Assembly: GCF_000235425.2 (NCBI RefSeq)
Contig: NZ_KI912267.1
Span: forward strand, 1,586,353-1,650,352
DNA length: 64,000 bases
Origin: Pseudofrankia saprophytica
GTDB taxonomy: Bacteria > Actinomycetota > Actinomycetes > Frankiales > Frankiaceae
Direction: 5' to 3'
In this document: positions 1 through 18,438 of the stretch, piece by piece
Numbering within the stretch: the stretch's first letter is position 1
How the letters are laid out: each line of letters starts with the position of its first letter
Program-made: the position numbers and the translations under genes
The notes under the pieces: model-generated
Database searches by the model: none
The model's input: the letters and a program-made list of their open reading frames with translations, nothing else
What the model was told of the DNA's origin: nothing

Positions 1-3000
1 GGTTCCGGTGGGGTCGGTGAGGTGGATGGTGGCGGTGGTGGGGGTGGTGGGGGTGATGGTGGCGTGGGCGGTGGGGGTGGCGGTGGTGTGGGTTTGGGTG
101 GTGGTGAAGGGTGAAGGGGGAGGTTGGGGGTGGTGGGGTTGGGGGTGTGGGTGGGGGTGGTGAGGGTGAGGGTGTGGAGGGCGGCGTCGAGGAGGGCGGG
201 GTGGATGGTGTAGCGGTGGGTGTCGGGGAGGGTGTCGGGGAGGGTGAGGGTGGCGTAGAGGGTGGTGTCGTCGTGCCAGGCGGCGGTGAGGTTTTGGAAG
301 GTGGGGCCGTAGTCGAGGCCTTGGGTGGTGAGGGTGTTGTAGTGGTGGGTGAGGTCGATGGGGTGGGTGTGGGGTGGTGGCCAGGGGGTGGGGTCGGGGT
401 CGGGTGTGGGTTGGTGGTTTTGGGGTGGGGGGATGGTGCCGGTGGCGTGGTGGGTCCAGGGGTGGTCGGGGGTGGTGTGGTGGGGGCGGGTGTGGATGGT
501 GAGGGTGCGGTGGCCGGTGGTGTCGGGGGGTGTGAGGGTGAGTTGGAGGTGGTGGGTGTCGGTGGGTGTGAGGGTGAGGGGGGTGTGGAGGGTGAGTTCG
601 TCGACGGTGTTGGTGCCGGTGTGCAGGGCGGCGTGGAGGGCGAGTTCGAGCAGGCCGGTGCCGGGGAAGAGGGTGGTGCCGTGGATGGTGTGGTCGGCGA
701 GCCAGGGCTGCGCCGCCAACGACACACTGCCGACGAACAGGATCTCGTCGCGATCGGCGATCGGCACGACGGCCCTGATCAGCGGATGATCCGTCGCGAC
801 GAGCCCGAGCCCGGTGACGTTCTCCGGCGCGGCCGGACGATGCCAGTAGTGCTTGTGCTGGAAGGGGTAGGTCGGTAGTTCGTAGGGGGGTAGGTCGGTG
901 GTAGGGGTGGGCTGGGGGTAGAGGGCGGGCCAGTGTGGGCTGGTGCCGGTGGTGTGCAGGGCGGCGACCGCGCGCAGCAGGACGGCCGGCTCCGGGCCGC
1001 CGCGCCGCTGCGCCGCGACCAGCCGTGCCCCGGTCGCGCCGTCGGGGCCGTGGTCGGTAAGGGTGCGGCTGGCGAGGGTGGTCAGGGAGTTGTCGGGGCC
1101 GAGTTCGAGGTAGCTGCGTGTGCCCTGGTCGTGCAGGGTGGTGACGGCGTGGGTGAAGCGGACGGCGTCGCGGGCGTGGCGTGTCCAGTACTCGGGTGTG
1201 GTGAGGTCCTCGTCGGTGGCGGTCGTGCCGGTGAGGGTGGAGACGATCGGGATGCGTGGGGCCTGGTAGGTCAGGCCGGTGAGGACCGTGCGGAACTCGT
1301 CGAGCATCGGGTCCATCAGCGGGGAGTGGAACGCGTGGCTCACCCGCAGTCGCCGGGTCTTGATCCCCTGGCGTTCGAGAGCCTCGGCGGCGGCCTCGAC
1401 GGCGGTGTGCTCGCCGGAGACGACCACGGAGTCCGGGGCGTTGACGGCGGCGATCGCCACCACGCCGCCGATCTCCGCCAGCACCGACGTGACCTGCGCT
1501 TCCGAGGCCTGGACCGAGGTCATGGCGCCGCCGTCGGGCAGTGTGTTCATCAGCCGACCCCGCGCGGCCACGAGCGCGGCCGCGTCCGGCAGTGACAGCA
1601 CCTCCGCGGCGTATGCGGCGGTGATCTCGCCGACCGAGTGCCCGGCGAGGTGGTCCGGCTGGATCCCCCAGGCGGTGACCTGCCGGTACAGCGCGGACTC
1701 GAACGCGAACAGCGCCGCCTGCGTGAACACCGTCCGCCCCAACACCCCCGCGAACGCGCTGCTCTCCGCCGCGAACATCACCTCCCGCACCGAGGCCGCG
1801 CCGACCCGGGCGAGTTCCTCTCCCAGATGCGGGTCCAACGCCGCGCAGGCGTCGTCCAGGGCGTCACGGAAGACGGGGAACGCCTGGTAGAGGTCTCGAC
1901 CCATCCCGGGACGCTGGCTGCCCTGCCCAGCGAACAGGAACGCCACTTCACCTGCCGGACCGGTGGCCTCGCCGGTGACGACCCGTGGATGTTCCCGCCC
2001 CTCGGCGAGGGCCGCCAGCCCCGCCAGCAGCTCCTCCCGGTCCGCCGCGAGCACCACGGCACGATGCGACATCACCGCCCGCGTCGTCGCCAACGCGAGC
2101 CCCACCCCCACCACACCCACCTCGGCACGCCCCCCGACGAACCGACCCAGCCGTCCCGCGACCGCCCGCAACGCCACCGCACTACGCGCCGACACCGGCA
2201 CCAGCACCCCGACACCCACGCCCGCCCCCGTGTCGGCACCCACGTCGGCGGCGTCGGACCGCGGTGCCGGTCCGGTGCTCCCAGTGGTCTGCCGCGCCGG
2301 CTCGACGGGCCCACCGACACCGACGCCCGCGTCATTGCCGGTGTCGGCGTTCGTGCCGGGGCTGGCGGTTTCTGGGGCCTGTTCGAGCACGACGTGCGCG
2401 TTGGTGCCGCTGATCCCGAACGACGACACCCCCGCCCGACGCACCCGCCCCACCGCCGGCCACGCCCGCGCCGCCGACAGCAACCGCACCCCACCCGCCT
2501 CCCAGTCCACCAACGGCGACGGATCACCCGCATGCAACGACGCCGGCAACACCCCATGCCGCAACGCCATCACCATCTTGATCACCCCACCCACCCCCGC
2601 CGCCGCCTGCGCATGCCCCACATTCGACTTCAACGACCCCAACCACACCGGCTCACCACCCGACCGCCCCCGCCCATACGTCGCCATCAACGCGTCGACC
2701 TCAATCGGATCGCCAAGACGAGTACCCGTCCCATGCCCCTCGACGACATCCACATCAGCCGCCGTCAAACCCGCCGAATCAAGAGCACGACGAATCACAC
2801 GTTCCTGCGACCGGCCGTTCGGCGCCGTCAGACCATTCGACGCACCATCCTGATTCACCGCACTACCCCGCACCACCGCCAAAACCCGACGCCCCTCCCG
2901 CACCGCATCCGAAAGCCGCTGCAACACCAGAACCCCCGCACCCTCCGCCCACCCCGTACCATCCGCACCCGCCGCAAACGACCGACACCGACCATCCCCC

Positions 3001-6000
3001 GACAACCCACCCTGCCGAGAAAACTCCACAAACGTCCCCGGCGACGACATCACCGTCACCCCACCCGCCAACGCCACCCCACACTCACCCCGCCGCAACG
3101 CCCCCACCGCCACATGCAACGCCACCAACGACGACGAACACGCCGTATCCACCGTCACCGCCGCCCCCTCCAGACCAAACACATACGCCACCCGCCCCGA
3201 CAGAACACTGCTGGCTCCGCCGGTCATGTGCTGGCCCTCGAGGGGGTCGGGACCGCCGCCGGGGACGGTGTGGTCGTGGAACGCGAAAGCGCCGACGTAA
3301 ACGCCCGTGTCACTGCCCCGCAGGGTGGTCGGGTCGATACCGGCGCGCTCGAACGCCTCCCAGCACACCTCCAACAAGACCCGCTGCTGCGGATCCATCG
3401 CCAACGCCTCACGCGGCGAAATCCCAAAGAACTCCGCGTCAAAACCCCCAGCACCCCCCAGAAAACCACCCCGCCGCGCAAACGACGACCCAGGAACATC
3501 CCCACCCCCACCAAAAAGACGCCCCAGATCCCACCCACGGTCACCCGGAAACTCCGACGTCCCGTCACGACCCTCCACAACCAGATCCCACAGATCCTCA
3601 GGAGAACCCACCCCACCCGGAAAACGGCACGCCATGCCCACGATGACGACGGGATCCTCCGCGTCGTCCTGGAAAGGGCGGCGCGCGGCCGGGGCGGGCA
3701 GCACGTCACCGCGCAGGTGGCGGATCAGGGCTTCGGGAGTGGGATGGTCGAAGACCAGGGTGGGGGCCAGGGTGACGTCGAGGGACCGGCCCAGCAGGTC
3801 GCGCAGTTCGACGGCGGCCAGCGAGTCGAAGCCGAGGTCCTTGAACGTGCGCTCCCGGTCGACGCGCTCAGGTGAGCCGTGGCCGAGAACGGCGGCCACC
3901 TGCGCGAGGACGAGTTCGGCCAGCGAGCGCTCGCGGTCGGCCTCGGGCAGCGCGGCGAGGCGATCCCGGGTCGTGCCGTCGGCGACCGGCCCGAGCGCGC
4001 CCGCGGTCGGTGCCGGTTCGGCCGCCTCCACCACCTCCGCGAGCGGCCCCGCGACCGCCCGGGCCGGTACCGACCGCGTACCCGTCCCGGCGGCCAACCA
4101 GTAGCTCTCCCGCTGGAAGGCATACGTGGGCAGCGAGACGCGGCGCCCACCCGCGCCTTCCAGGATCCGGTCCCAGGCGACGGGCACGCCGCGTACATGC
4201 AGACCGGCCACAGCCGCGGCGAGCGTGTCCTGCTCCGGGCGGCCGGCCCGGGCCGCGGGCAGGAGGGCCGCGTCGGCGGTGACGCAGTCCCGGCCCATGG
4301 TCGCGAGCACGGCGTCCGGTCCGACTTCGAGGTGGACCGTCACGCCCAGCGCTTCGAGCGCGCGCATGCCGTCGAGGAACCGGACACCCCGACGGGCGTG
4401 GCGCACCCAGTGGTCGGCGTCGAGCAGTTCCCCGGGCGCGACCGCGCGGCCGGTGAGGTTGGAGACGACCGGAAGCGTGGCCTGACGGTAGGTCAGGTTC
4501 TCGGCGACCCGGCGGAACTCTCCCAGCATGCTGTCCATGTGCGGCGAGTGGAAGGCATGGCTGACCCGCAGCCGCCGGGTCCTGCGCCCACGGGACCGCC
4601 AGGCGTCGGCGATGGTGCTGACGGCATCGGCGTCCCCGGCTATCACCGTGGCGGATGGACCGTTGAGCGCGGCGATCTCCACGCGGCCGGCGAAGTCGGC
4701 GAGCCGCGGGACGAGCTCGGCCTCCGAAGCCTGGATGGAGACCATCGCTCCGCCTTCCGGCAGGGCCTGCATCAGGCGACCGCGCGCGGCGACGAGGGTG
4801 GCGGCGTCGGCCAGGGAGAACACGCCGGCGGAATATGCGGCGCTCAGCTCGCCGATGGAGTGGCCGAGCAGAGCCGCAGGGACGATCCCCCAGTGCCGCA
4901 GGAGCCTGAACAGGGCGGTCTCGTACGCGAACAGCGCCGCCTGGGTGTAGACCGTCTGATCGAGCAGGGCGGCGGCGGGCGCGTCCGCGGGGCCGAGGAC
5001 CAGGTCGCGGACCGAACGGTCGAGGTGCTTGTCCAGCTCGCGGCAGGCGGCGTCGAAGGCATCGGCGAACGCGGGCTGGGCGACGTGCAGAGCCGCGCCC
5101 ATGCCGGGCCGCTGACTACCCTGACCGGTGAAGAGGAACGCGAGGCCGCGTTCGGCCGGCTCGGCGGCGGCGCGGACGACGCGGGGCGAGGGACGGCCGC
5201 CGGCGAGGTCGCCGAGGGCCGCGGCGAGGCCGTCGCGGCTGTCGGCCAGCAGTGCGGCCCGGTGTGTGAGATGGCTGCGCGTCAGGGCGGTGGTGCGCGC
5301 GAGGTCGGGCAGGGTGAGGTCGGCATGGGCCGCCAGGTGTTCGCGCAGCCGCTGGGCCTGGGTGCGCAGCGCGGCGTCCACATGTCCGGACAGCAGGACG
5401 GTTACCGGCCCGGGTTCGCTGCCGGTGCTGCCGGCGCCGTTGCCAGCGGCCGGCGCGGACAGCCCGGTGGCGTCGGACAGCACGAGGTGGCAGTTGGTGC
5501 CGGCCATTCCGAAGGAGCTGACGCCCGCGAACACCGGACCGTCGGCGTCGTCCGCGGTGAGGTCGACGCGGGTGACGGCGACCTCGAGGCCCAGGGCGTC
5601 GAGCGGGATCGCCGGGTTCGGACGCTCGTAGTTGAGGCTGGGTGGCAGGGTGCGCTCGCGCAGGCTTAGCGCGGCCTTGAGGAAGCCGGCGATGCCCGCG
5701 GCGCCTTCGAGGTGTCCGATGTTGGTCTTGACCGAGCCGACCAGGAGAGGAGACGCGGCGGGCCGGCCCCGGCCGACGACCGCGCCAAGCGCGGCGGCCT
5801 CGACGGGGTCGCCGGCGGGTGTTCCGGTGCCGTGCAGTTCGACGAAGCGCACGCGGGCCGGATCCACCCCCGCGTCGGCATAGGCCCTGCGCAGGACGTC
5901 ACGCTGCGCGCTCTCGCTGGGCGCGGTGAGCGTGTCGCCGCCGCCGTCGTTGTTGACCGCTCCGCCGCGGACGAGGCAGTACACCGTGTCGCCGTCCGCG

Positions 6001-6782
6001 AGGGCCTGGCTGAGGGTCTTGAGCACGACGACGCCGCCGCCCTCCCCCCTTACGTAGCCGTCGGCGCGGGCGTCGAACGTGTGGGCGCGGCCGGTCGGCG
6101 AGAGAGCGCCGAAGCGCTCGGCCACGGTGAAGCCCTCGGGCAGCAGGTTGAGGCTGACTCCGCCCGCCAGGGCCAGGTCGGTCTCGCCGCGGCGCAGGCT
6201 CTCGCAGGCCAGGTGGACGGCGACCAGCGAGGACGACTGCGCGGTGTCGACGACGAGGCTGGGGCCCTGGAACCCGAGTGCGTACGAGACGCGGTTCGCG
6301 ATGACGCCGCGGCTCAGGCCGGTGATGGTACGGCCGTTGACGGCCCCGGGTCCGAGCCGGTCGGCGAGCTTGGCGTAGTCATCCCAGATAGCGCCGAGGT
6401 AGACGCCGGTCCGGGTGCCCCGGCGGGTGGCGGGGACGATGCCGGCGTCTTCCAGGGCCTCCCAGGCGAGCTCGAGGGCGAGCCGCTGCTGAGGGTCCAT
6501 GTCGACGGCCTCGCGCGGGGAGATGCCAAAGAACTCCGGATCGAAACGATCGACCCCGTCGACGAAGCCGGCGCGCGGCGGCCGCGCGCCCGCGGACCGC
6601 GCGCCGAACCCGGGCCGGCCCGGCGGCACGTCCGTGACCGCCTCGGCGCCGGCGCGCAGCAGTTCCCAGAACGCGGCCGGGTCGGGGGCGCCGGGCAGCC
6701 GGCAGGCCAGACCGACGACCGCGACGGGCTCCGCCGGGGCCAGCCGTCGCGCAGCGCTGTAGGAACGCGGTTCGTCGGTCAT
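1..6782 (-). CDS. Modular type I polyketide synthase, loading module plus first extension module (partial at window edge)
   Basis: Reads leftwards from ATG at 6782 (GAGGG about 9 nt upstream) and leaves the window. Domains: KS1 (about residues 17-440), AT1 (550-845, GHSIGE with Ser642), ACP1 (GFDSL, Ser987), KS2 (1042-1465, DTACSSSL with Cys1215), AT2 (1620-1915, GHSVGE with Ser1716) and the start of a DH (HTIHGTTLFP, His2031). KS1 carries DTAQSSSL, with Gln182 in place of the nucleophilic Cys. This is the KSQ signature of loading modules that decarboxylate an acyl-malonyl-ACP to make the starter, so this should be the first PKS protein. Both ATs have HAFH, the malonyl-type motif, predicting an acetyl starter and a malonyl extender. 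There is no N-terminal docking helix, as expected for a loading protein. The frame is verified at residues 182, 987, 1215 and 2031. It appears to shift near 85-118, inside the DH. Product unknown. Confidence 0.95.
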   Translation of the reverse strand, partial: MTDEPRSYSAARRLAPAEPVAVVGLACRLPGAPDPAAFWELLRAGAEAVTDVPPGRPGFGARSAGARPPRAGFVDGVDRFDPEFFGISPREAVDMDPQQRLALELAWEALEDAGIVPATRRGTRTGVYLGAIWDDYAKLADRLGPGAVNGRTITGLSRGVIANRVSYALGFQGPSLVVDTAQSSSLVAVHLACESLRRGETDLALAGGVSLNLLPEGFTVAERFGALSPTGRAHTFDARADGYVRGEGGGVVVLKTLSQALADGDTVYCLVRGGAVNNDGGGDTLTAPSESAQRDVLRRAYADAGVDPARVRFVELHGTGTPAGDPVEAAALGAVVGRGRPAASPLLVGSVKTNIGHLEGAAGIAGFLKAALSLRERTLPPSLNYERPNPAIPLDALGLEVAVTRVDLTADDADGPVFAGVSSFGMAGTNCHLVLSDATGLSAPAAGNGAGSTGSEPGPVTVLLSGHVDAALRTQAQRLREHLAAHADLTLPDLARTTALTRSHLTHRAALLADSRDGLAAALGDLAGGRPSPRVVRAAAEPAERGLAFLFTGQGSQRPGMGAALHVAQPAFADAFDAACRELDKHLDRSVRDLVLGPADAPAAALLDQTVYTQAALFAYETALFRLLRHWGIVPAALLGHSIGELSAAYSAGVFSLADAATLVAARGRLMQALPEGGAMVSIQASEAELVPRLADFAGRVEIAALNGPSATVIAGDADAVSTIADAWRSRGRRTRRLRVSHAFHSPHMDSMLGEFRRVAENLTYRQATLPVVSNLTGRAVAPGELLDADHWVRHARRGVRFLDGMRALEALGVTVHLEVGPDAVLATMGRDCVTADAALLPAARAGRPEQDTLAAAVAGLHVRGVPVAWDRILEGAGGRRVSLPTYAFQRESYWLAAGTGTRSVPARAVAGPLAEVVEAAEPAPTAGALGPVADGTTRDRLAALPEADRERSLAELVLAQVAAVLGHGSPERVDRERTFKDLGFDSLAAVELRDLLGRSLDVTLAPTLVFDHPTPEALIRHLRGDVLPAPAARRPFQDDAEDPVVIVGMACRFPGGVGSPEDLWDLVVEGRDGTSEFPGDRGWDLGRLFGGGGDVPGSSFARRGGFLGGAGGFDAEFFGISPREALAMDPQQRVLLEVCWEAFERAGIDPTTLRGSDTGVYVGAFAFHDHTVPGGGPDPLEGQHMTGGASSVLSGRVAYVFGLEGAAVTVDTACSSSLVALHVAVGALRRGECGVALAGGVTVMSSPGTFVEFSRQGGLSGDGRCRSFAAGADGTGWAEGAGVLVLQRLSDAVREGRRVLAVVRGSAVNQDGASNGLTAPNGRSQERVIRRALDSAGLTAADVDVVEGHGTGTRLGDPIEVDALMATYGRGRSGGEPVWLGSLKSNVGHAQAAAGVGGVIKMVMALRHGVLPASLHAGDPSPLVDWEAGGVRLLSAARAWPAVGRVRRAGVSSFGISGTNAHVVLEQAPETASPGTNADTGNDAGVGVGGPVEPARQTTGSTGPAPRSDAADVGADTGAGVGVGVLVPVSARSAVALRAVAGRLGRFVGGRAEVGVVGVGLALATTRAVMSHRAVVLAADREELLAGLAALAEGREHPRVVTGEATGPAGEVAFLFAGQGSQRPGMGRDLYQAFPVFRDALDDACAALDPHLGEELARVGAASVREVMFAAESSAFAGVLGRTVFTQAALFAFESALYRQVTAWGIQPDHLAGHSVGEITAAYAAEVLSLPDAAALVAARGRLMNTLPDGGAMTSVQASEAQVTSVLAEIGGVVAIAAVNAPDSVVVSGEHTAVEAAAEALERQGIKTRRLRVSHAFHSPLMDPMLDEFRTVLTGLTYQAPRIPIVSTLTGTTATDEDLTTPEYWTRHARDAVRFTHAVTTLHDQGTRSYLELGPDNSLTTLASRTLTDHGPDGATGARLVAAQRRGGPEPAVLLRAVAALHTTGTSPHWPALYPQPTPTTDLPPYELPTYPFQHKHYWHRPAAPENVTGLGLVATDHPLIRAVVPIADRDEILFVGSVSLAAQPWLADHTIHGTTLFPGTGLLELALHAALHTGTNTVDELTLHTPLTLTPTDTHHLQLTLTPPDTTGHRTLTIHTRPHHTTPDHPWTHHATGTIPPPQNHQPTPDPDPTPWPPPHTHPIDLTHHYNTLTTQGLDYGPTFQNLTAAWHDDTTLYATLTLPDTLPDTHRYTIHPALLDAALHTLTLTTPTHTPNPTTPNLPLHPSPPPKPTPPPPPPPTPPSPPPPPPPPPSTSPTPPE

Positions 6783-7088
6783 GGGGGCGCACCCTCGCCT
6801 TTCCATCCAGGCTTTTCTCAAGGCCGCTTCGCGCCCGGTCTTCCGGGCGGTCTTCGTTCTCCGCTCCGGCGGCGCCCGTCCCACCGCGAGCCCGACTCAT
6901 CGGGTTTTCGAAACGGCGAGGACCTGTGTCCCGAAGTTTTACCGACCGCCCGAGACCAGCTGCGCCGGGCCGGCGGGACGCAAAGACGGCGACAGCGCGA
7001 CGGACGGGCCGTGGCGCGATTTACCGATGAATTCGAACGAGCAAAACGCTACTTGCGGCCCGGGCGGCGGCCAACCCTTAGTCTCGCT

Positions 7089-7233
7089 CCCCTATCAGGG
7101 TTTCCCGTCTTTGCCAGCTAGGGGTGGCCTTATGGCCGACGTCGGCTCTCGGCGGGGCACGGCCACCGCGGCGGGCGTCGTTCGGACCGATACCCCTATG
7201 CGGCGCCAGAGAGTAGGGGTTGACCGATAGGGG
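7089..7233. promoter_or_regulatory. Cluster of five TAGGGG/CCCCTA boxes in the PKS-LAL intergenic region
   Basis: CCCCTA at 7089-7094 faces TAGGGG at 7119-7124. CCCCTA at 7193-7198 faces TAGGGG at 7214-7219, and a further direct TAGGGG lies at 7228-7233, 14 bp on. The boxes lie 300-450 bp upstream of the PKS start and over 500 bp upstream of the LAL regulator gene. The same hexamer recurs before the CCR gene (11349-11364). I infer an operator for the LAL protein. The rest of 6783-7754 shows no gene. Confidence 0.5.
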
Positions 7234-7754
7234 TGTCTCGAAGGCGCGCTCGCGTTCCTGCCACACACGAATGCGTGACCGCGCGTCGGGTCGTAGAAAG
7301 CAACATCACAGTCGTCTTGCCGACACCGTGTATCTGGCGTCACGGCCGCCGTCCGGTGCGCGTGCCAGGACTCGTATGACATGCTGTCCATGACTAATGA
7401 CATGCCGTCACGGCCGGACGAAGGCGTCCGGCCGCCACATTCGATCACGCTCACGCTTGGATGCGCCGTGCCGTTCCCGCCGCTCCTGGGGTGTTGGAAA
7501 TGGGCGGAGGCCGGGGACGGCCGTCTGCCGGATTCGATTCCGGCCGCGCGCGGGTCGGGAGCCTCGACGATCGCGGCCATCAGGCACATGCGATCTCTCC
7601 GACCGCATCGCGGGCACCGCCCTCTGGCGGAATACGTAATACGCGCCACGTGGGCACGGGAAACAGCCGCGAAGAAGCAGAGGTTACCAGAGGAATCCAG
7701 CCGGCCGCCGAGCCGGAGAACCGTATAGCGAGGGTACGAACGGGGAGGCATTAT

Positions 7755-10496
7755 ATGCTACTCGTCGAACGCGCGGAAGAGCTACTCCTGCTAAGGCGCA
7801 GCCTCGATGAGGCACGGGGCGGCGCGGGGCAGGTCGTCTCCATCAGCGGCTCAGTCGGCTCGGGCAAGACCGAGCTCACCCGCCGGCTCGCCGACTGGGC
7901 CGCGGACCGCGGCGTACGGGTCGTGCAGACCTACGCGGCCCCGGCAGGGCGGGGAGCCAGTCCGGGAATCTTCGGCCAGCTCCTCGAGGCGTGCACGTCC
8001 GCGGCCGAGTTGCGGCACGCGGTGACCGCGGCCCCGGCCGCGGACACCCTGCCGCCCCAGCTGATGCTGCTTGTCTGCCACGATCTGCTGCGCTCGGCCG
8101 CCGAGGCTCCACTACTACTGATCGTCGACGACGTCCACCAGAGCGATCCGGAGTCCCTGCGAGGACTGCTCTACCTCGTCCGGCACTGCCGCACCGCGCC
8201 GGTCATGCTGGTGCTGATCACCGGCGAATGCCTGCAGCAGAGCCTCCCGCTCTTCCATGCGGAGCTGTCCCGCGAGCCGAACTACCGGCAGATCCAGCTG
8301 CCGCTGCTGTCGGTGGAGGGCGTCGCCGAAGTACTCGCCGAGCGGCTCGACGCCGACGCCGCGCACCGGCTCGCCCCGGCCGCCCACGCGGCCAGCGGCG
8401 GCAACCCCCTGGTGGTTCGGGCGCTGCTGACGGAGCACCTGCACATCCATCCGACCGACGGCCCGCGGTCCCTGGCGCCGGGCGACGGCTCCGCGACGGC
8501 GGTTCTCGCCTGCCTGCACCGCATCGGACGGGCCGGACTGGAGGTGGCCCGAGCCATCGCGCTGCTCGGCGAGCACGCCGTCCCCGAGCTGATCTCCCGG
8601 CTGATCTCCCGGCCCCGCAATCTGGTCGACCGGGCCCTCGCCAAACTGTCGGCGGCGGGCCTGCTCGGCCCCGACCGGCTGCTGTGCCACCCAGCGGCAC
8701 GGTCGGTCGTGCTCAGCGACCCGAACTTCGACGACGCGGCCGAACTGCAATACGGCGCCGCCGAGTTGTTGCACGCCGAGGGCGAGGCCGCGCTGCGGGT
8801 CGCCGAGCACCTGATCGCCGCCGACCGGATCGGCAGAAGTTGGCATATCGCGGTCCTGCGCCAGGCGGCCGAGGACGCGCTGGCCGACGGCCGGGCCGAC
8901 CTGGCCCTGCAGTGCCTGGACCTGGCGCTGCGGGAGTGCTCCGACGGCGAGGAGCGCGCACTGATCACCGCCGCCCGGGTCCGGGTCGAGTGGCGGATGA
9001 ACCCGGCCCGGGCCATGTCCCACTTCGCCGGGCTGCTGGACGCCTTCGAACACGGGTGCCTTCCGGACCTGGAGGCCGTCATGCTGGGCCGCGCGCTGAT
9101 GTGGCACGGGCGAGAAGAGGAGGCGGCCAGGATTCTGGACGCGATCCGCTCGCGCGCGCATGCGCCGGAGGTCGGTGAGGCGCTGCTCAGCACCGACCAC
9201 TCGCTGCGCAGCACGCACCCCGGGTCCGCGGCGGTCCCGCGAGAAAGACCCGCGGCGGCCGGGCCGCCCGACCGGGATCCCGCGGCCAGACCGCTGCCCG
9301 ACGCGGCGATGTGGCACTACCTGCGGGCCGGCGACCACGCGACCGCCGCGCGGTTCGCCGAGGACGTGCTGCGCGACGACAGGTCGCCGGACTACTGGCG
9401 CGGGCCGCATTGCAACGCGCTGTACGTGCTGATCTACGTACATGAGCTCGAACGCGCCGAGTACTGGGCCGCGCGAATCTACCGGGATGCCACGCCACAG
9501 GGCTACCGGACCTGGCAGGCCATGAAGTCCGCCGTACTCGCCGAGATCGCGCGCCGGCGCGGCGACCTGCCGGCGGCCGAGCGACTGGCCCGCGGCGCGC
9601 TGCAGCTCATGGGACCACGGGCCTGGGGGCCGCAGATCGATCTGCCGCTCTCGACCCTGATCTACGTGCTCACGGCGATGGGTAGGCACGGCGCCGCGGC
9701 CGAGTGGCTGGCATATCCGCGTCCCACTGGCGCGACGACGACCCGTTACGGCCTGCACTACCTGGACGCCCGCGCGCAGCATCATCTGGCGATGGGCCGC
9801 CATCTGCCGGCCCTGCAGGATTTCCTCGCCTGCGGGCAGCTGATGGCGAGCTGGGACATGGACATCGTCGGCATAGCGCCCTGGCGGCTGGGGGTCGCTG
9901 AGGCGCTGCTGCAGCTCGGCCGCACCGAGCGGGCGGCCCGGACGCTGGACGAGCTGGCGGAGCAGCCCGGCGCCGCGCACCCCCTGGTGCGCGGCGGCCT
10001 GCTCAGGCTGCGCGCGGCCACGGTGAAACCCCGTCAGGCGGTGGTGCTGCTACGCGAGGGCGCGGACATGCTCGAAAGCAGCGGGTCGCCCGCGGAGCTG
10101 CTGGCGGCGCTGCTCGACCTGCACCGGGTGCACGTGGAGCTGGGCGACTCGCACCTGGCGCATTTCACCGCCCGGCAGATCTGGCGGACGGCGGCGCAGT
10201 GCGGTGCCGAGGCCCGCGCCCGCCGGACGCTCGGCCCCGAGTTCGCCGCGCCGTGCCCGGACGACGGGACGCCGTCGGCGACGCCGGACACCACGTATAC
10301 GGTGCTCAGTGACGCCGAGCTGCGGGTGGCGGCACTGGCCGTGCGCGGACACACCAACCGGGAGATCGCCAGCCGCCTGTACATCACGGTCAGCACGGTC
10401 GAGCAGCATCTCACCCGCGTATACCGCAAACTGCAGGTCGGTGGCCGGATCGACCTGCAGACCCGGCTGAACCCGAAGGTGCTGGGCACCGCGTGA
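7755..10496 (+). CDS. LAL-family LuxR-type transcriptional regulator (ATPase plus C-terminal HTH)
   Basis: 913 residues, the usual size of large ATP-binding LuxR regulators of polyketide clusters. The start is the ATG at 7755, chosen for GGGGAGG 7 nt upstream. The N-terminal P-loop is GSVGSGKT (residues 32-39), followed by a Walker B-like LLLIVDDVHQSD near residue 120. A long helical middle resembles the TPR-like region of the family. The LuxR HTH occupies about residues 850-905 (TNREIASRLYITVSTVEQHL). The gene diverges from the PKS gene and is the obvious candidate activator of it and of the CCR gene, which share TAGGGG boxes. A strong 26-bp inverted repeat directly follows the stop. Assignment to the LAL family is secure; the target set is inference. 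Confidence 0.93.
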   Translation: MLLVERAEELLLLRRSLDEARGGAGQVVSISGSVGSGKTELTRRLADWAADRGVRVVQTYAAPAGRGASPGIFGQLLEACTSAAELRHAVTAAPAADTLPPQLMLLVCHDLLRSAAEAPLLLIVDDVHQSDPESLRGLLYLVRHCRTAPVMLVLITGECLQQSLPLFHAELSREPNYRQIQLPLLSVEGVAEVLAERLDADAAHRLAPAAHAASGGNPLVVRALLTEHLHIHPTDGPRSLAPGDGSATAVLACLHRIGRAGLEVARAIALLGEHAVPELISRLISRPRNLVDRALAKLSAAGLLGPDRLLCHPAARSVVLSDPNFDDAAELQYGAAELLHAEGEAALRVAEHLIAADRIGRSWHIAVLRQAAEDALADGRADLALQCLDLALRECSDGEERALITAARVRVEWRMNPARAMSHFAGLLDAFEHGCLPDLEAVMLGRALMWHGREEEAARILDAIRSRAHAPEVGEALLSTDHSLRSTHPGSAAVPRERPAAAGPPDRDPAARPLPDAAMWHYLRAGDHATAARFAEDVLRDDRSPDYWRGPHCNALYVLIYVHELERAEYWAARIYRDATPQGYRTWQAMKSAVLAEIARRRGDLPAAERLARGALQLMGPRAWGPQIDLPLSTLIYVLTAMGRHGAAAEWLAYPRPTGATTTRYGLHYLDARAQHHLAMGRHLPALQDFLACGQLMASWDMDIVGIAPWRLGVAEALLQLGRTERAARTLDELAEQPGAAHPLVRGGLLRLRAATVKPRQAVVLLREGADMLESSGSPAELLAALLDLHRVHVELGDSHLAHFTARQIWRTAAQCGAEARARRTLGPEFAAPCPDDGTPSATPDTTYTVLSDAELRVAALAVRGHTNREIASRLYITVSTVEQHLTRVYRKLQVGGRIDLQTRLNPKVLGTA

Positions 10497-10547
10497 CGCG
10501 GGTTCCCGTGCCCCGGCGCCAGGCGCCGGGGCACGGGAACCCGCGTC
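10495..10547. terminator. Perfect 26-bp inverted repeat, bidirectional terminator
   Basis: Two exactly complementary 26-nt arms surround a single A at 10521. The hairpin starts within the stop codon of the LAL gene and lies 60 nt beyond the stop of the convergent reductase gene at 10608. It is a GC-rich actinobacterial-type terminator without a T-run, and can serve both strands. Confidence 0.8.
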
Positions 10548-10607
10548 GGCTTTCACCCTCCGGGTTGTTTGCACAGTGCTAGGTCGGTAATGCTGCGCGG
10601 ATCCGGG

Positions 10608-11252
10608 TCAGGCCTTTGCGACCGACAGATTGAACTCTGCGGTCTGGAAGGTGTTGAACAGCCGGATGAACAGCAGCAGCGCGGCCTCGGTGGCGCGCGC
10701 GCCGACCACGTCACCGAGATCGATGATCTGATCCTCAGCCCAGCCAAAGGCCTTCAGCAGCTCGGCGACCTCGGCCTTGGCCGTCGCGTCGTCACCGTTG
10801 AGGAACACCGTGTGGTGACCCGGAATGCGGCCGGGGTCGACCATGACCTGTGCCGCCATGGTGTTCAGCGTCTTCACGATCCGGGCCCGCGGGAAGGCCT
10901 TCTGAAGCTGCTCGGCCACGCTGCCGCCGCCGGGGGTGGCGACCGCGACCACACCGTCCCTGGATTCGATGCCGTTCGAGACGTCCACCACGATCTTGCC
11001 GCGCAGGTTGTCGGCGCCGGCCGCGGTGAGCACGTCGAGGGAGGCGAGCCCCGGCGCGGTGTTCACCACGAGTTCGGCGACCGCGGCGGTCTGCGCGAGC
11101 GTGGAAATCTCGACGTCGTGCCGCGCGGCCCACTCCTTGGCCGGAGAGTTCTCGGGGTCGCGCGATCCCAGCGTGACCTCGTGCCCGAGTGAACGCAGTT
11201 TCGCGCCCACGACCTTTGCGACGTTGCCGGTGCCCAGGAGGCCGATGTTCAT
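10608..11252 (-). CDS. F420-dependent NADP reductase-like protein (NPDH family)
   Basis: 214 residues. The N-terminal Rossmann motif GLLGTGNVA (residues 4-12) and the SRDP segment (30-33) that reads the NADP phosphate match the NADP oxidoreductase, coenzyme F420-dependent family (PF03807). The rest (VVNTAPG, VVDVSNGI, VKTLNTM) agrees with short bacterial members, which act as NAD(P)-dependent reductases or hydride carriers. The gene diverges from the CCR gene, with the CCCCTA boxes between them. It might recycle NADPH for CCR or the PKS, but nothing in the sequence proves this. The substrate cannot be told. Confidence 0.85.
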   Translation of the reverse strand: MNIGLLGTGNVAKVVGAKLRSLGHEVTLGSRDPENSPAKEWAARHDVEISTLAQTAAVAELVVNTAPGLASLDVLTAAGADNLRGKIVVDVSNGIESRDGVVAVATPGGGSVAEQLQKAFPRARIVKTLNTMAAQVMVDPGRIPGHHTVFLNGDDATAKAEVAELLKAFGWAEDQIIDLGDVVGARATEAALLLFIRLFNTFQTAEFNLSVAKA

Positions 11253-11348
11253 CGTATCGGTCTACTTCCGTGTATGTGCGGGCACTGTTGCCCGCGGAGT
11301 CTGGCCAGCGCCGGAATCGACCGCGATATTCCCGCCGGCCGCCAGGCG

Positions 11349-11364
11349 CCCCTAGTGACCCCTA
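11349..11364. promoter_or_regulatory. Two CCCCTA boxes 10 bp apart upstream of the CCR gene
   Basis: CCCCTAG at 11349-11355 and CCCCTAG at 11359-11365 are exact direct copies at one helical turn. They lie 110-125 bp upstream of the CCR start and match the boxes at 7089-7233. I infer a shared activator, most likely the LAL protein. Confidence 0.5.
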
Positions 11365-11474: not shown

Positions 11475-12833
11475 GTGGAAGACATCCTCGACGCCCTTCT
11501 CGACACCGCGGCCTCCGATTCCTTCGCCCGGCTGAAGATCCCGAAAACCTACCGCGCGGTCATCGTCCGACGAGACGAGGCCGGCATGTTCGAGGGGGTA
11601 CCGGCCGCGGAGCGGGATCCCCGCAAGTCGCTGCACGTCGACGACGTGCCCACACCCGAGCCAGGCCCTGGCGAGGCCTTGGTCGCGGTCATGGCCAGCT
11701 CCGTGAACTACAACTCGGTGTGGTCCGCGGTCTTCGAGCCCGTATCCACCTTCGCCTTCCTGAGGCGTTACGGCCGACGCTCCGAGCAGGCCCGGCGGCA
11801 CGACCTGCCCTATCACGCGATCGGCTCCGACCTGGCTGGCGTCGTGCTGCGCACCGGTCCCGGAGTGCACGCCTGGAAGCCGGGCGACGAGGTGGTCGCG
11901 CACTGCCTGTCCGTCGAGTTGGAAAGCCCCGACGGGCACTCCGACACGCTGCTCGACCCCGAGCAGCGCATCTGGGGCTACGAGACCAACTTCGGGGGCC
12001 TGGCCGAACTGGCCCTGGTCAAGTCCAACCAGCTGATGCCCAAGCCGCGGCATCTGACCTGGGAGGAGGCGGCGAGCCTCGGACTGGTCAACTCCACCGC
12101 GTACCGGCAGCTGGTCTCCCGCAACGGCGCCCAGATGAAGCAGGGCGACGTCGTCCTTGTCTGGGGGGCCTCCGGCGGGATCGGCGCGTTCGCCACGCAG
12201 TACGCGCTGGCCGGCGGCGCAATTCCGGTGTGCGTGGTCTCCAGCCCGGACAAGGCGCGCATCTGCCGGGAGCTGGGCGCCGAGGCGGTGATCGACCGGC
12301 GGGCCGAGGGCTATGCCTTCTGGCGGCCGGATGGCGGGGGGCAGGATCCGGCCGAATGGCGGCGCTTCGGGGCCCGCATCCGGGAGCTGACCGGGGGCGA
12401 GGACCCGGACATCGTCTTCGAGCACCCGGGCCGGGAGACCTTCGGCGCCTCGGTCTACGTCGCGCGCCGCGGCGGGACCATCGTCACCTGCGCCTCCACC
12501 AGCGGCTACCTGCACGAATACGACAACCGGTACCTGTGGATGAGCGTCAAGCGGATCATCGGCTCGCACTTCGCCAACTACCGCGAGGCCTGGGAGGCCA
12601 ACCGGCTCGTGCAGAAAGGCCGCATCCACCCTACGGTCCACCGCGCCTTCCCGCTGGAGGAGACCGGCCAGGCGGTATACGAGGTGCACCGCAACCAGCA
12701 CCAGGGCAAGGTCGCCGTGCTCTGCCTCGCCCCCGACGAGGGGCTGGGAGTACGCGACGCCGAGCTGCGCGCCCGGCACCTGCCGGCCATCAACCGCTTC
12801 CGCAGGCGCGCCGACGGCACCGACCTGACGTGA
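11475..12833 (+). CDS. ccr: Crotonyl-CoA carboxylase/reductase
   Basis: 452 residues. The GTG start at 11475 is preceded by GGAGGA at 11464-11469, so the longer reading from 11391 is rejected. The protein is a medium-chain dehydrogenase of the CCR type. SSVNYNSVW near residue 80 and GSHFANYREAWEANRL near residue 360 are typical of crotonyl-CoA carboxylases/reductases, as are ETNFGGLAEL and the NADPH-binding WGASGGIGAFATQYA. The enzyme reduces crotonyl-CoA with NADPH and fixes CO2 to give ethylmalonyl-CoA, a PKS extender unit and an intermediate of the ethylmalonyl-CoA pathway. It sits between the PKS/LAL locus and a carboxyltransferase and shares promoter boxes with the PKS region, so a role in extender supply is likely. 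The two ATs visible here look malonyl-specific, so an ethylmalonyl AT would have to be further left. Confidence 0.94.
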   Translation: MEDILDALLDTAASDSFARLKIPKTYRAVIVRRDEAGMFEGVPAAERDPRKSLHVDDVPTPEPGPGEALVAVMASSVNYNSVWSAVFEPVSTFAFLRRYGRRSEQARRHDLPYHAIGSDLAGVVLRTGPGVHAWKPGDEVVAHCLSVELESPDGHSDTLLDPEQRIWGYETNFGGLAELALVKSNQLMPKPRHLTWEEAASLGLVNSTAYRQLVSRNGAQMKQGDVVLVWGASGGIGAFATQYALAGGAIPVCVVSSPDKARICRELGAEAVIDRRAEGYAFWRPDGGGQDPAEWRRFGARIRELTGGEDPDIVFEHPGRETFGASVYVARRGGTIVTCASTSGYLHEYDNRYLWMSVKRIIGSHFANYREAWEANRLVQKGRIHPTVHRAFPLEETGQAVYEVHRNQHQGKVAVLCLAPDEGLGVRDAELRARHLPAINRFRRRADGTDLT

Positions 12834-12968: not shown

Positions 12969-14444
12969 ATGACGGAACTCACCGCGCGCGCCACCGTCAC
13001 CGTGGCCGAACAGCGCCGAGCGCTGAACGACCCACGTGAAAGGCTGGCCCGTCTGCTCGATCCGGGAACACTGAACGTCACCTCCAATCTGCCCGGCAGC
13101 CGGGTCGCCGTCGCCCGCGGCCGCATCAATGGCGTCGCTGTCGTCGCCTACTGCACGGATGCCAGATCGCTGGGGGGCGCGATCGGTTCCCTGGGCGCAC
13201 GCCAGATAGTGGACGCCATCAACGGCGCGGTCGCCGACCGTGCTCCCGTCGTCGGGCTCTGGCACTCCGGCGGAGCGAGCCTCGGCGACGGCGTAGACGC
13301 CCTGGATGGCATCGGGCAGATGTTCACCGCGATGATCGCGGCATCGGGCCGAGTACCGCAGGTGTCCGTGGTGCTGGGCCCGGCCGCCGGCGGGGCCGCC
13401 TACGGACCGGCGCTCACGGACGTGATCGTCATGGCGCCCGAGGGCAAGGTTTTCGTAACCGGGCCCGACGTCGTTCGCCAGGTGACGGGCGAGCAGATCG
13501 ACATGGCGGGGCTGGGTGGATCGGACGCACACGGCCGGCGGTCCGGCGTCGTGCACGTGAACGCCCAGTCGGAGGCGGACGCGTATGCGCGGGCGCGGCG
13601 GATCACCACGCTGCTGGCAAGACCGGGCGCCTTCGACACCACCGCCGCGGACGGTGATGCGCGCGACGCTGGCTCCCTGCTGCCAGACCGTCCCCGTCGG
13701 GCCTATGACATCCGTCCGGTCGTGCGCGCCATCCTCGACGATCCAGCCCAACGCCGCGGCGCGACGGATGCGACCGGCGCGGCCGAGGACGACTACGAGG
13801 AACTCCAACCGCGGTGGGCACCCAATGTCGTCGTGGCACTCGGACGGATGACCGGGCGGACCGTGGGTGTCATCGCCAACAATCCGCTGCGCAAGGGCGG
13901 TTGCCTCGACTCCCTGGCCGCCGAGAAGGCCGCCCGCTTCGTCCGGATGTGCGACTCGTTCGGCATCCCGCTCGTCGTCCTCGTGGATGTCCCTGGATAC
14001 CTGCCGGGCGTGAGCCAGGAGTGGGGCGGCGTCGTGCGGCGAGGCGCCAAGCTTCTCTATGCGTTCTCGGAGGCGGTCGTGCCACGGGTGACGGTGGTTC
14101 TGCGGAAATCCTATGGGGGCGCGTACATCGCGATGAACTCCCGCTCTCTGGGCGCGACCAGCGTCCTGGCCTGGCCCCAGGCGGAGGTCGCGGTCATGGG
14201 CGCCGAGGCCGCCGTGGGAATCCTGCACCGACGGACCCTTGCGGCGGCCGCGGCCGATGAACGAGACGCCCTGCGCGCCCAGCTCGTCGACGAGCACGTC
14301 CGCGAGGCCGGCGGGCTGCAGCGCGGTGTCTCGCTCGGTGTGATCGACAAAATCATCGACCCGGTCGACACGCGACGCGAGGTCGTTCGTGTCCTGGCGG
14401 CGGCACCTGGCCGCCAAGGCGCCCACGGGAACATTCCCTTGTGA
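12969..14444 (+). CDS. Acyl-CoA carboxylase beta subunit (carboxyltransferase)
   Basis: 491 residues, full length for the AccB/PccB family. It starts RATVTVAEQRRALNDPRERL and ends GAHGNIPL, the usual C-terminus. The oxyanion-hole glycine clusters are present (GPAAGGAAYGPAL and KSYGGAYIAM). At the position known to tune acyl length in Streptomyces PccB (Asp422) versus AccB (Ile), this protein has Ile (GGAYI). That suggests an AccB-like relaxed preference including acetyl-CoA. The biotinylated alpha subunit is not in the window. The enzyme would make malonyl- or methylmalonyl-CoA for the PKS. No clear Shine-Dalgarno precedes this ATG, so the start is the least sure part. A 9-bp hairpin follows at 14505-14535. 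Confidence 0.92.
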   Translation: MTELTARATVTVAEQRRALNDPRERLARLLDPGTLNVTSNLPGSRVAVARGRINGVAVVAYCTDARSLGGAIGSLGARQIVDAINGAVADRAPVVGLWHSGGASLGDGVDALDGIGQMFTAMIAASGRVPQVSVVLGPAAGGAAYGPALTDVIVMAPEGKVFVTGPDVVRQVTGEQIDMAGLGGSDAHGRRSGVVHVNAQSEADAYARARRITTLLARPGAFDTTAADGDARDAGSLLPDRPRRAYDIRPVVRAILDDPAQRRGATDATGAAEDDYEELQPRWAPNVVVALGRMTGRTVGVIANNPLRKGGCLDSLAAEKAARFVRMCDSFGIPLVVLVDVPGYLPGVSQEWGGVVRRGAKLLYAFSEAVVPRVTVVLRKSYGGAYIAMNSRSLGATSVLAWPQAEVAVMGAEAAVGILHRRTLAAAAADERDALRAQLVDEHVREAGGLQRGVSLGVIDKIIDPVDTRREVVRVLAAAPGRQGAHGNIPL

Positions 14445-15138: not shown

Positions 15139-15897
15139 TCAGAGGCTCTGGCCGCCGGAGAGCTCGATACGCGCGCCGTTCGCCCAGCCGAAACCGTCGG
15201 CGAGGATCAGCGGCACGGCGGCGCCGATGTCGTCGGGCTTCCCGGCCCGGCCGAGCGGGATCGCGGCGGCGACGGTCGCGTTGACCCGCTCGTTGTCGCG
15301 GACCAGGCCGCCGCCGAAGTCGGTGGCGATGGCCCCGGGCACCAGCACGTTCACCCGGATCTGCCGCTCGCCCAGCTCGGCGGCCTGATACCGCGTCAGG
15401 ACCTCGACCGCACCCTTCGCGGCGGCGTAGGCGGAGTTGCCCGGATAGGTGAACCGGGCCAGGCCGCTCGAGACGTTGAGGACGCGCCCCCCGTCGGCCA
15501 GGAGCGGCAGCAGCGTCTGGGTGAGGAAGAACGGGGCCTTCACGTGGACGCGAAAGATCTCGTCGAACTGGTCCGGAGTCGTCCCGTCGAACGGCGCGTG
15601 CAGCCCGATGCCGGCGTTGTTGACCAGATAGTCGAGATGGTCGGCACCGAGCCCCGCCAGGGTCGCGCGTACGTCCGCCGCGAACGCCGCGAAGCTCGTG
15701 CTGTCGCCGACGTCGAGCCGCAACGCCGCGGCCGGTGCGCCGTGGTCGGCGACCTGCGCGACCATCGCGTCGGCCTCCTCCTTGTTGCCACGGTAGGTGC
15801 CGATGACGCCGACTCCGGCGGCGGCCAGGTGCACGGCCATGCTCCGGCCAAGACCACGGCTGGCGCCCGTCACCAGCGCGATTTTCCTGTCCATCAT
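15139..15897 (-). CDS. Short-chain dehydrogenase/reductase
   Basis: 252 residues, a classical SDR. TGASRGLG (residues 10-17) binds NAD(P), NNAG is at about 92, the catalytic Ser is in LNVSSG, and YAAAK supplies Tyr and Lys. The C-terminal GRAGKPDDIGAAVPLILAD is the FabG-like substrate loop. It diverges from the XRE-family regulator gene at 16178, which probably controls it. Quinone or carbonyl reductase activity would be typical, but the substrate cannot be inferred. MMDRK offers two adjacent ATG starts. Confidence 0.9.
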   Translation of the reverse strand: MMDRKIALVTGASRGLGRSMAVHLAAAGVGVIGTYRGNKEEADAMVAQVADHGAPAAALRLDVGDSTSFAAFAADVRATLAGLGADHLDYLVNNAGIGLHAPFDGTTPDQFDEIFRVHVKAPFFLTQTLLPLLADGGRVLNVSSGLARFTYPGNSAYAAAKGAVEVLTRYQAAELGERQIRVNVLVPGAIATDFGGGLVRDNERVNATVAAAIPLGRAGKPDDIGAAVPLILADGFGWANGARIELSGGQSL

Positions 15898-16177
15898 GAT
15901 TCCTCCCAGGCTGCGTTTCCCGTGGGTCTCACCGACGCTGGCCGTCCTCGACCACTGTCACTTCGCCCCTCGACCACTGTCACTTCGGCGCCGTGGCTCA
16001 TGGGCGCTCAGCCTTTCCCCGGATCGCCAGTACGGGGATCGGGCGCGGCCGCGCCGGCATGATGAGGAGGGCGGCCCGGTGCGTGGCCGAGGTGGCCGCC
16101 CACCGCGAGGCCCGGAATCGCCTCGCGTCCTGAAGGCGGACACCGGGCCCGGCCCGCGGCGGGAGGAGCGAGCGGTC

Positions 16178-17071
16178 GTGGAACACGCGGAGCTGGGAGT
16201 CTTCCTCCGGCACCGTCGGGAGCAGTTGCGGCCGGCGGATGTCGGGCTCATCGCCGGCGGTCGGCGCCGGGCGGTCGGCCTTCGCCGCGACGAGGTCGCC
16301 CTCCTCGCCGACATGTCGACGGACTACTACGAGCGGATCGAGCAGGGCAGGGGGCCGCGGCCGTCCCCGGCGATGCTCGGCGCGATCGCCCGGGCGCTGC
16401 GCCTGACCCTGGACGAGCGCGACCACGTCTACCGGCTGGCCGGCCAGGCACCGCCGCCCCGGCACCGGTCGCTCGGCTACGCCGACGCCGGCCTGATGTG
16501 CGTACTGGATGCCCTCGCTCCGTCGGTGCCCGCGCTCATCTCGGACGACCTGTCGACCGTCGTCGCGCAGAACGCGCTCAACGTCGCGTTGCTCGGCCCG
16601 ATCGCCCAGGCGGACGGCCGGCGACGCAACTTCCTCTGGCGCTGGTTCGCCGATGGCGACCTGCGGGCCCGCTATCTGCCCGACCAGCACGAGCGGCTGT
16701 CCCGCGAGTACGTCGCCGACCTGCGGGTCACCCTGGGACAGCGCCCCCAGGATGACGACATCCGGTCACTCGTCGAAGAGCTGTCCCGGGCCAGCGCCGA
16801 GTTCCGCGAGGTCTGGGAGCGCCAGGAGGTCGCCGTCCGTCAGGTCACCCGCAAGGTGCTCGTCCATCCCGAGGTGGGCCGGCTCGACCTGGAATGCGAC
16901 ATCGTACTCAGCCCACCATCCGGCCAGCGGCTGGTCCTCTTTCGCCCCCAGCCCGGCTCCGGGTCCGGCGCGCGGCTGGAAATGCTCGCGGTGCTGGGCA
17001 CTCAGACGTTCACCGCGCACTCCAGCTCGACGGGGCTGTCGTCGACACCGTGGCCCACTCCGCGGACATGA
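16178..17071 (+). CDS. XRE-family transcriptional regulator with C-terminal MmyB-like domain
   Basis: 297 residues from the GTG at 16178, preceded by GGGAGGAG at 16161-16168. The N-terminal HTH (residues about 5-75) reads LGVFLRHRREQLRP, RRDEVALLADMSTDYYERIEQGRG, followed by a MmyB-type ligand-binding domain (LNVALLGPIAQ, RNFLWRWFAD, RLDLECDIVL). In this family such proteins repress a divergent oxidoreductase or efflux gene. Here the divergent gene is the SDR at 15139 and the convergent one an MFS pump, so local control of these genes is plausible. The upstream gap 15898-16177 carries no recognised gene. Confidence 0.9.
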   Translation: MEHAELGVFLRHRREQLRPADVGLIAGGRRRAVGLRRDEVALLADMSTDYYERIEQGRGPRPSPAMLGAIARALRLTLDERDHVYRLAGQAPPPRHRSLGYADAGLMCVLDALAPSVPALISDDLSTVVAQNALNVALLGPIAQADGRRRNFLWRWFADGDLRARYLPDQHERLSREYVADLRVTLGQRPQDDDIRSLVEELSRASAEFREVWERQEVAVRQVTRKVLVHPEVGRLDLECDIVLSPPSGQRLVLFRPQPGSGSGARLEMLAVLGTQTFTAHSSSTGLSSTPWPTPRT

Positions 17072-17092: not shown

Positions 17093-18397
17093 TCAGGGAG
17101 TGCCACCGGTCCCCAACCGGCCCTCGCGGAGTTGGCCGCCGGGCTGCTCGAGCGCGGTGCCGAGCCGGGGAACCGGGAACGGCTTCACCCGGGCGACGGT
17201 CGCGACGTACAGGAGGAGGCCGGCGGCGGTGAGCACGAAGCCGGCCCAGACCGTCGACAGAGTCCCCCACCCGGCGTCGAGGGCGACCGCGCCGCCGATC
17301 GCGCCGAGCGAGTTGGCCAGGTTGAGGGCTGCCAGGTTGAGCGCGCCCATCAGGGTCGGGGCGCGCGGCGCGAGACCGGTCAGCCGGACCTGGATGGTGG
17401 GGATCGCCGCCATCATGGTCGCGCCGACGCCGAACAGGCAGGGCAGCAGAATCGCCAGATTGCCGCCGGCCACGCCGATCAGCACCAGGAGCGCCAGCAC
17501 ACCGCCGTAGCCCCAGACCAGTCCGCGGTGCTCGTACCGGTCGGCGGCCCGGCCGCCCAGATAGTTGCCGACCGCCATGCCGAGGCCGAAGACGGCGAGC
17601 GCGATCGGGATGAGCGAGGCGTCCCGCCGCGCCGCGTCGGTGACGAACGGGCCGATGAACGTGTAGACGGCGAAGATGCTTGAAATGCCGAGCGCGGCGA
17701 CGATGAACATCAACCAGACGTTGAGCTGGCGGAGGCTGCCCAACTCGTTCGTGATGGAGGTGCCGCGCAGGTCGTCGGTGTGTGGCAGCCAGGCCAGCAG
17801 GGCGACGCCGGCGAGCAGGCCGACGGCGACCACGGTCCAGTACATGGCGCGCCAGCCGGCGTTCTGACCGATGAAGGTGCCGAGTGGCGACCCGACGATG
17901 GTGGCGGCGGTGAGTCCTCCCATCACGGTGGCGAACGCCTTGCCACCCCTGCCCGGGCCGTACACATACGCGGCGACGACGGCACCGGCACCGAAATACG
18001 CACCCTGGACGCTGCCGGTGACGAACCGGAAGACGACGAGCGGCACGATGTCCGGCGCGACCGCGGAGAGCCCGTTGCCGACGAGGAAGAGCACGATCAG
18101 GCCGAGCAGCAGAGTGCGCCGGTTGACCCGGGCGGCGAGCAGGGTGATCGCCGGCGAGCCGATCACCACACCGAAGGCGTACGCAGTCACCGCGTATGTC
18201 GCGACCGGAATCGACACGTCCAGGTCGGCCGCGAACAACTGGATGATGCCGTTGCTGCCGAACTCGCCGGTGCCGATCGCGAAGGTGCCCAACGCCAGCG
18301 CGAACAGCGTCAGCCTCGGATGGCCGATGGGTGACCTGGCGGAGGCATGCCGATTTTCTTCGGCGGCGCACTGACCTTCGTATGCACGCTGATGCAT
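17093..18397 (-). CDS. MFS transporter, DHA1 drug-efflux type
   Basis: 434 residues with 12 predicted membrane spans. The start at 18397 is chosen because GGAGG lies 10 nt upstream; ATG at 18406 is too close to it. LTLFALALGTFAIGTGEFG begins helix 1. The loop between helices 2 and 3 is ARVNRRTLLLG, and GSVQGAYFGAG is in helix 4-5. The sequence resembles the Cmx/AraJ-like arabinose-efflux or chloramphenicol-resistance group. It is probably a proton-driven exporter of a small hydrophobic compound. It ends 21 nt from the convergent XRE regulator gene. Substrate not predictable. Confidence 0.9.
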   Translation of the reverse strand: MHQRAYEGQCAAEENRHASARSPIGHPRLTLFALALGTFAIGTGEFGSNGIIQLFAADLDVSIPVATYAVTAYAFGVVIGSPAITLLAARVNRRTLLLGLIVLFLVGNGLSAVAPDIVPLVVFRFVTGSVQGAYFGAGAVVAAYVYGPGRGGKAFATVMGGLTAATIVGSPLGTFIGQNAGWRAMYWTVVAVGLLAGVALLAWLPHTDDLRGTSITNELGSLRQLNVWLMFIVAALGISSIFAVYTFIGPFVTDAARRDASLIPIALAVFGLGMAVGNYLGGRAADRYEHRGLVWGYGGVLALLVLIGVAGGNLAILLPCLFGVGATMMAAIPTIQVRLTGLAPRAPTLMGALNLAALNLANSLGAIGGAVALDAGWGTLSTVWAGFVLTAAGLLLYVATVARVKPFPVPRLGTALEQPGGQLREGRLGTGGTP

Positions 18398-18438
18398 CGT
18401 CCCCATCCTCCGTTCCGTGGCTGCGTCAGCCCGCGACG

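Follow-up and report, generated by a model that had tools for sequence, protein, structure and literature searches.

LAL regulators are a known kind of activator of polyketide clusters, their genes being common activators of silent clusters, and control of a CCR-type supply pathway by a LAL is known as well (FkbN, allAKRD). MalT of E. coli is a large ATP-binding activator of the LuxR type with repeated asymmetric G-rich boxes. PimM, a PAS-LuxR regulator, has a GerE-type HTH, the half-site CT(V)GGGA and the operator CTVGGGAWWTCCCBAG. In a patent on LAL regulators, CTAGGGGGTTGC is reportedly given as a LAL binding site. FkbN, the cluster-situated LAL of the FK506 cluster of Streptomyces tsukubaensis, is required for expression of the majority of the operons in its cluster, allAKRD included, and binding of its DNA-binding domain to the promoters of these units was reported (PMC6022917). 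The allAKRD genes serve allylmalonyl-CoA supply, and AllR is a CCR homologue (PMC4606968). The site proposed for FkbN has two inverted repeats of 7 nt and is similar to that of PimM (PMC6022917). For HcdR2, a LuxR-type regulator with an AAA ATPase domain from herbicidin clusters, comparison of related clusters revealed a common site upstream of cluster genes, and EMSA confirmed it (PMC6794829). As stated for geldanamycin, the nucleotide sequences read by LALs are mostly undescribed (PMC6784220), and a search of the open literature found no published LAL site with TAGGGG, TAGGGGT or CTAGGGGG, or binding of it.

We analysed a 64,000-nt stretch of Pseudofrankia saprophytica DNA, referred to here as the window, which holds PKS, LAL and CCR genes (Table 1). 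The PKS domains seen so far by Pfam are KS-AT-ACP, a loading-like part whose KS has Q in the active-site motif, followed by KS-AT-DH. Two AT domains carry VASH/GHSQG motifs, which are not of malonyl type, and stand beside HAFH malonyl-type ATs; VASH does not prove ethylmalonyl use. The LAL protein of 913 aa has an AAA_16 ATPase domain at its N end (Pfam, E 5e-14) with the Walker A/B motifs GSVGSGKT and LLLIVDDVHQ, and a LuxR-type GerE HTH at residues 850-901 (Pfam, E 5.5e-11). The CCR scored 602.8 bits against the TIGR01751 equivalog, above the cut-off of 378.55. The carboxyltransferase gene is probably co-transcribed with CCR, as it follows on the same strand and has no box of its own. The cluster extends beyond the left edge of the window, where further PKS genes, a plus-strand KSIII-HBDH-PKS row (HBDH, 3-hydroxybutyryl-CoA dehydrogenase) and a P450 gene are found. 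Together with CCR, the KSIII-HBDH-PKS row would complete the path between acetyl-CoA and ethylmalonyl-CoA.

Table 1. Coordinates of genes and boxes, in window positions except for the last two rows, which refer to locus L005 in the left part of the cluster
Feature	Position	Strand	Basis and remarks
PKS gene (modular type I, target 1)	1..6782	-	Start codon at 6782; truncated by left window edge; Pfam and KSQ-like AQSSS motif
Degenerate box TAAGGGT	7074..7080	-	Pair scan and alignment; retained in F. nepalensis
TAGGGG box	7089..7094	-	Missing in F. nepalensis; weakest of seven
TAGGGGT box	7119..7125	+	Conserved in F. nepalensis
TAGGGGT box	7192..7198	-	Left arm of inverted pair ACCCCTA-N15-TAGGGGT; conserved in F. 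nepalensis
TAGGGGT box	7214..7220	+	Right arm of inverted pair; also opens the direct repeat (14 bp); conserved
TAGGGGT box	7228..7234	+	Second copy of direct repeat; conserved in F. nepalensis
LAL regulator gene	7755..10496	+	Pfam and translation
F420-dependent NADP oxidoreductase-like gene	10608..11252	-	PF03807; npdG-like below cut-off; divergent from CCR, common upstream region
CTAGGGG box before CCR	11349..11354	-	Conserved in F. nepalensis
TAGGGGT box before CCR	11358..11364	-	Conserved; direct repeat with 11349 box
Crotonyl-CoA carboxylase/reductase gene (CCR; target 2)	11475..12833	+	NCBIfam TIGR01751
Acyl-CoA carboxylase carboxyltransferase gene	12969..14444	+	PF01039; 135 bp downstream of CCR
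KSIII-HBDH-PKS gene row	L005 7471-9365 and onward	+	Left part of cluster; KSIII start near 7471
P450 gene region	L005 2600-4926		Degenerate boxes at about -88/-109; divergent from TetR gene; left end of cluster

The surroundings of the boxes showed some further features. At the protein level the KS-AT-DH stretch of the PKS at 933-3656 is 89% identical to another copy in opposite orientation (C2:1555955-1558630), about 30 kb further left in the same genome, which is an inverted duplication of PKS modules, or a conversion, of recent date. N runs occur in PKS coding sequence of the left flank (300 in the 204 kb examined) and interrupt the downstream end of the PKS. Genes for an MmyB-like XRE-family regulator (15797-17071) and an MFS transporter (17093-18679) lie immediately to the right of the cluster.

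The first-pass annotation had listed seven TAGGGG hexamers, and each was found exactly where it had been placed, at 7089, 7193, 11349 and 11359 on the minus strand and at 7119, 7214 and 7228 on the plus strand; the two CCCCTAG copies before CCR are indeed 10 bp apart. The inventory was incomplete, as it had missed a pair at 883/902 and single copies at 31737, 41380, 47471 and 50750. No TAGGGG was found between 11365 and 31736, and therefore none precedes the carboxyltransferase gene, as had been noticed. Upstream distances are 307-452 bp to the PKS start and 527-666 bp to the LAL start for the boxes on the PKS side, and 111-126 bp to the CCR start for those before CCR. Orientation and spacing differ among the boxes. 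The 883/902 pair (883-907) has a spacing of 19 bp and belongs to the reading frame of the PKS, where the DNA is locally repetitive. It is probably unrelated to regulation and was set aside.

The clustering of the boxes is highly non-random. In total the window contains 13 copies of TAGGGG against 11.1 +/- 3.3 expected, that is, no overall enrichment. At the background rate derived from about 300 kb of the same genome, the probability of five boxes in 145 bp at one given place is about 3e-12, and about 2e-7 such clusters are expected per genome. Pattern searches for pairs over the genome (9.98 Mb) returned three inverted pairs, two of them in the window, and six direct pairs, of which 7214/7228, 11349/11359 and the coding 883/902 are in the window. 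Five of the nine pairs of the genome thus fall in the window, four of them at sites named in the first-pass annotation.

To compare other genomes, we took 20 kb around each of 19 LAL genes, about 35-40% identical to that of the window and picked by LAL similarity alone, with random regions, PKS regions chosen away from LALs, and reversed and shuffled words as controls. Intergenic DNA was delimited by a rough gene caller; LAL flanks of 1.5 kb gave a weak signal, and the 20 kb regions were needed. In the intergenic DNA of these loci TAGGGG was the most enriched hexamer (48 copies where 6.4 were expected), TAGGGGT the most enriched heptamer (34 copies where 1.6 were expected, spread over 17 of the 19 loci) and CTAGGGGT the top-ranking octamer. 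TAGGGGT was dominant, with TAGGGGGT present in 2 copies only. Equal abundance of TAGGGG upstream of random genes, which had been named as the outcome contrary to a LAL regulon, was not found: 34 copies of TAGGGGT in 53 kb of LAL-linked intergenic DNA compare with 1 in 66 kb of random intergenic DNA (P 2e-11), and with 1 in 18 kb for the PKS regions free of LALs (P 5e-4). Reversed and shuffled words showed no comparable enrichment. Since the Frankia window is outside the set of 19 loci, this is an independent test of the word first picked out in it.

Pairs of boxes followed the same distribution. Over 24 genomes, 12 of 34 inverted pairs had a LAL gene within 50 kb (0.5 expected, P 2e-14), as did 21 among the 136 direct pairs listed (2.7 expected, P 4e-13); these P-values are optimistic because pairs within one cluster are not independent. 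In one complete genome (G124), which has two LAL genes, all five inverted pairs were close to these. The PKS, P450, monooxygenase, transporter and dioxygenase genes of LAL-PKS clusters in annotated Streptomyces plasmids were preceded by boxes, and one plasmid pair was exactly 10 bp apart, as before the CCR of the window. One of the four annotated plasmid LAL loci (L148) had no intergenic box near the LAL, and TAGGGGT was absent from the 20 kb of a locus with a more distant LAL-like protein (L131, E 1e-30). A class-wide scan of 394 genomes for ACCCCTA-N13-17-TAGGGGT gave mostly hairpin-like matches; of 15 matches outside the two Frankia genomes, one had a canonical LAL at a distance of 22 kb and another was next to a LAL-like gene. 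Spacing alone therefore does not define the operator. The word CCCCTATTCTAGTAGGGG was excluded as an operator, being a repeated element with several copies in two genomes (G031 and G023), where it is often near contig ends, as if in a repeated or mobile element.

It could be argued that the boxes are operators of another co-resident regulator, either a global one or, for instance, the TetR whose gene adjoins the P450 gene at the left end of the cluster, and that the LAL is a mere neighbour, its association with the boxes being a correlation. We regard this as unlikely, in view of an enrichment that extends across 19 LAL loci of different families picked by LAL similarity alone and is lacking in PKS regions away from LALs. 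The recognition helix of the LALs is also nearly invariant: its core STVEQHLT was identical in 28 of 28 aligned LALs, which fits a target word common to LALs.

Conservation was examined in Frankia nepalensis CN7, the closest named relative, whose LAL is 91% identical to that of the window. The alignment shows exact copies of six of the seven boxes, with 7089 lost and the variant TAAGGGT at 7074 retained; TAGGGGT is conserved between species while its flanks change. The pair before CCR is kept with its spacing altered from 10 to 11 bp, and the adjoining DNA differs and is poorly conserved. Two boxes in the KSIII promoter (L005 7009 and 7126) are retained as TAGGGGT and TAGGGGGT. The promoter region of the P450 gene was sought in F. 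nepalensis for footprinting and was not found.

The same arrangement was found in G124, an actinobacterium unrelated to the window genome. An inverted TAGGGGT pair (L069 15803/15836) stands directly upstream of a minus-strand HBDH-CCR-carboxyltransferase row near a LAL, with the operon start about 35-70 bp downstream of the pair, and a TAGGGGT box precedes the P450 gene by 88 bp. Judged from the sequences, this is the wiring proposed for Frankia, in another organism. The LAL could in principle act on the PKS/LAL region while CCR is under other control and the pair before it is a direct repeat arisen by chance, as some 0.6 TAGGGG pairs with a 10 bp spacing are expected per genome when such a pair is taken alone. 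This is a little less probable still than a different regulator, given that the pair lies so near the CCR start, survives in F. nepalensis despite altered flanks and spacing, and has a counterpart before the CCR operon of the G124 LAL cluster. The proposal of the first-pass annotation, a LAL regulon that couples ethylmalonyl-CoA supply to polyketide synthesis, is thus well supported by sequence because of three independent lines: the conservation in F. nepalensis, the enrichment at distant LALs and the paired boxes before the CCR operon of G124. Extension of the regulon to the KSIII-HBDH-PKS operon left of the window is likewise well supported by the boxes.

An artefact of composition or chance (G-runs beside rare TA in DNA of 72% G+C, or hairpins and terminators) agrees with a window total at expectation and with the perfect hairpins or repeated elements formed by some TAGGGG pairs elsewhere, but is hardly credible against the clustering, the conservation and the cross-genome enrichment relative to reversed and shuffled words, the more so as the two Frankia arms enclose a loop without complementarity and are not followed by a T-run.

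We therefore favour, with considerable confidence, TAGGGG(T) as the recognition half-site of the cluster's own LAL, which would activate assembly and supply together. Because the word marks clusters with the same type of regulator in many actinobacteria, it is very probably a docking site of the LAL, one activator serving both tasks. The LAL would be activated via its N-terminal ATPase part and would then bind heptamer arrays, reading direct repeats 10-14 bp apart and inverted pairs with wide spacing. Direct repeats with spacings of 10-16 bp and inverted pairs separated by two or three turns of the helix suggest a LAL oligomer on several boxes, as with MalT. Such arrays would control the PKS operon and the CCR-carboxyltransferase genes from upstream and, outside the window, would act upstream of the KSIII-HBDH-PKS operon and, in degenerate form, of the P450 gene. 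Autoregulation is possible, since the PKS-side arrays are also upstream of the LAL gene. The bound LAL would recruit RNA polymerase, and with recruitment at all arrays, extender-unit supply and chain assembly would be turned on together. Joint activation of the PKS, CCR-carboxyltransferase and KSIII-HBDH-PKS transcripts appears most likely. LAL binding, activation, the direction of control and ethylmalonyl-CoA as the extender are what we infer from these sequences. Against a simple activator, the boxes on the PKS/LAL side are far from the starts unless the leaders are long. Against a LAL operator are the locus without TAGGGGT (L131) and the one without an intergenic box near its LAL (L148), the degenerate boxes of the P450 gene and the variable orientation and spacing.

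What may be new is one operator word common to the PKS-linked LAL family. We lean towards the view that PKS-linked LALs across actinobacterial families share the operator word cTAGGGGTt, which their nearly invariant recognition helix would read, and that LALs of unrelated clusters could cross-activate one another. If this is true, the targets of an uncharacterised LAL could be listed from sequence alone. A heptamer that marks targets across genera would allow LAL regulons to be listed, cluster borders to be drawn, and reporters or activation tests for silent clusters to be designed, and it would show which precursor pathways are wired to which synthase.

In comparison with known systems, the LAL of the window resembles MalT as an ATP-binding LuxR-type regulator that would act on repeated boxes, but matches the MalT model in the HTH only (23.9 bits against a cut-off of 537). 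The abutting 16-bp palindrome of PimM type is absent from the window, where the boxes are TAGGGGT with arms at least 15 bp apart. The patent site CTAGGGGGTTGC includes the TAGGGG core, and many boxes here are TAGGGGTTG; it has, however, five Gs before TT, whereas TAGGGGT is dominant here. HcdR2 is set apart by the description of its site as a 21-bp imperfect palindrome, in nucleoside clusters (PMC6794829). FkbN was tested experimentally. Its proposed site is made of inverted repeats, whereas the window has direct repeats and widely spaced inverted pairs of TAGGGGT; the supply that FkbN controls is of allylmalonyl-CoA, while the context of the window CCR suggests ethylmalonyl-CoA. FkbN is nevertheless a cluster LAL that controls CCR-type supply, as we propose for the LAL of the window.
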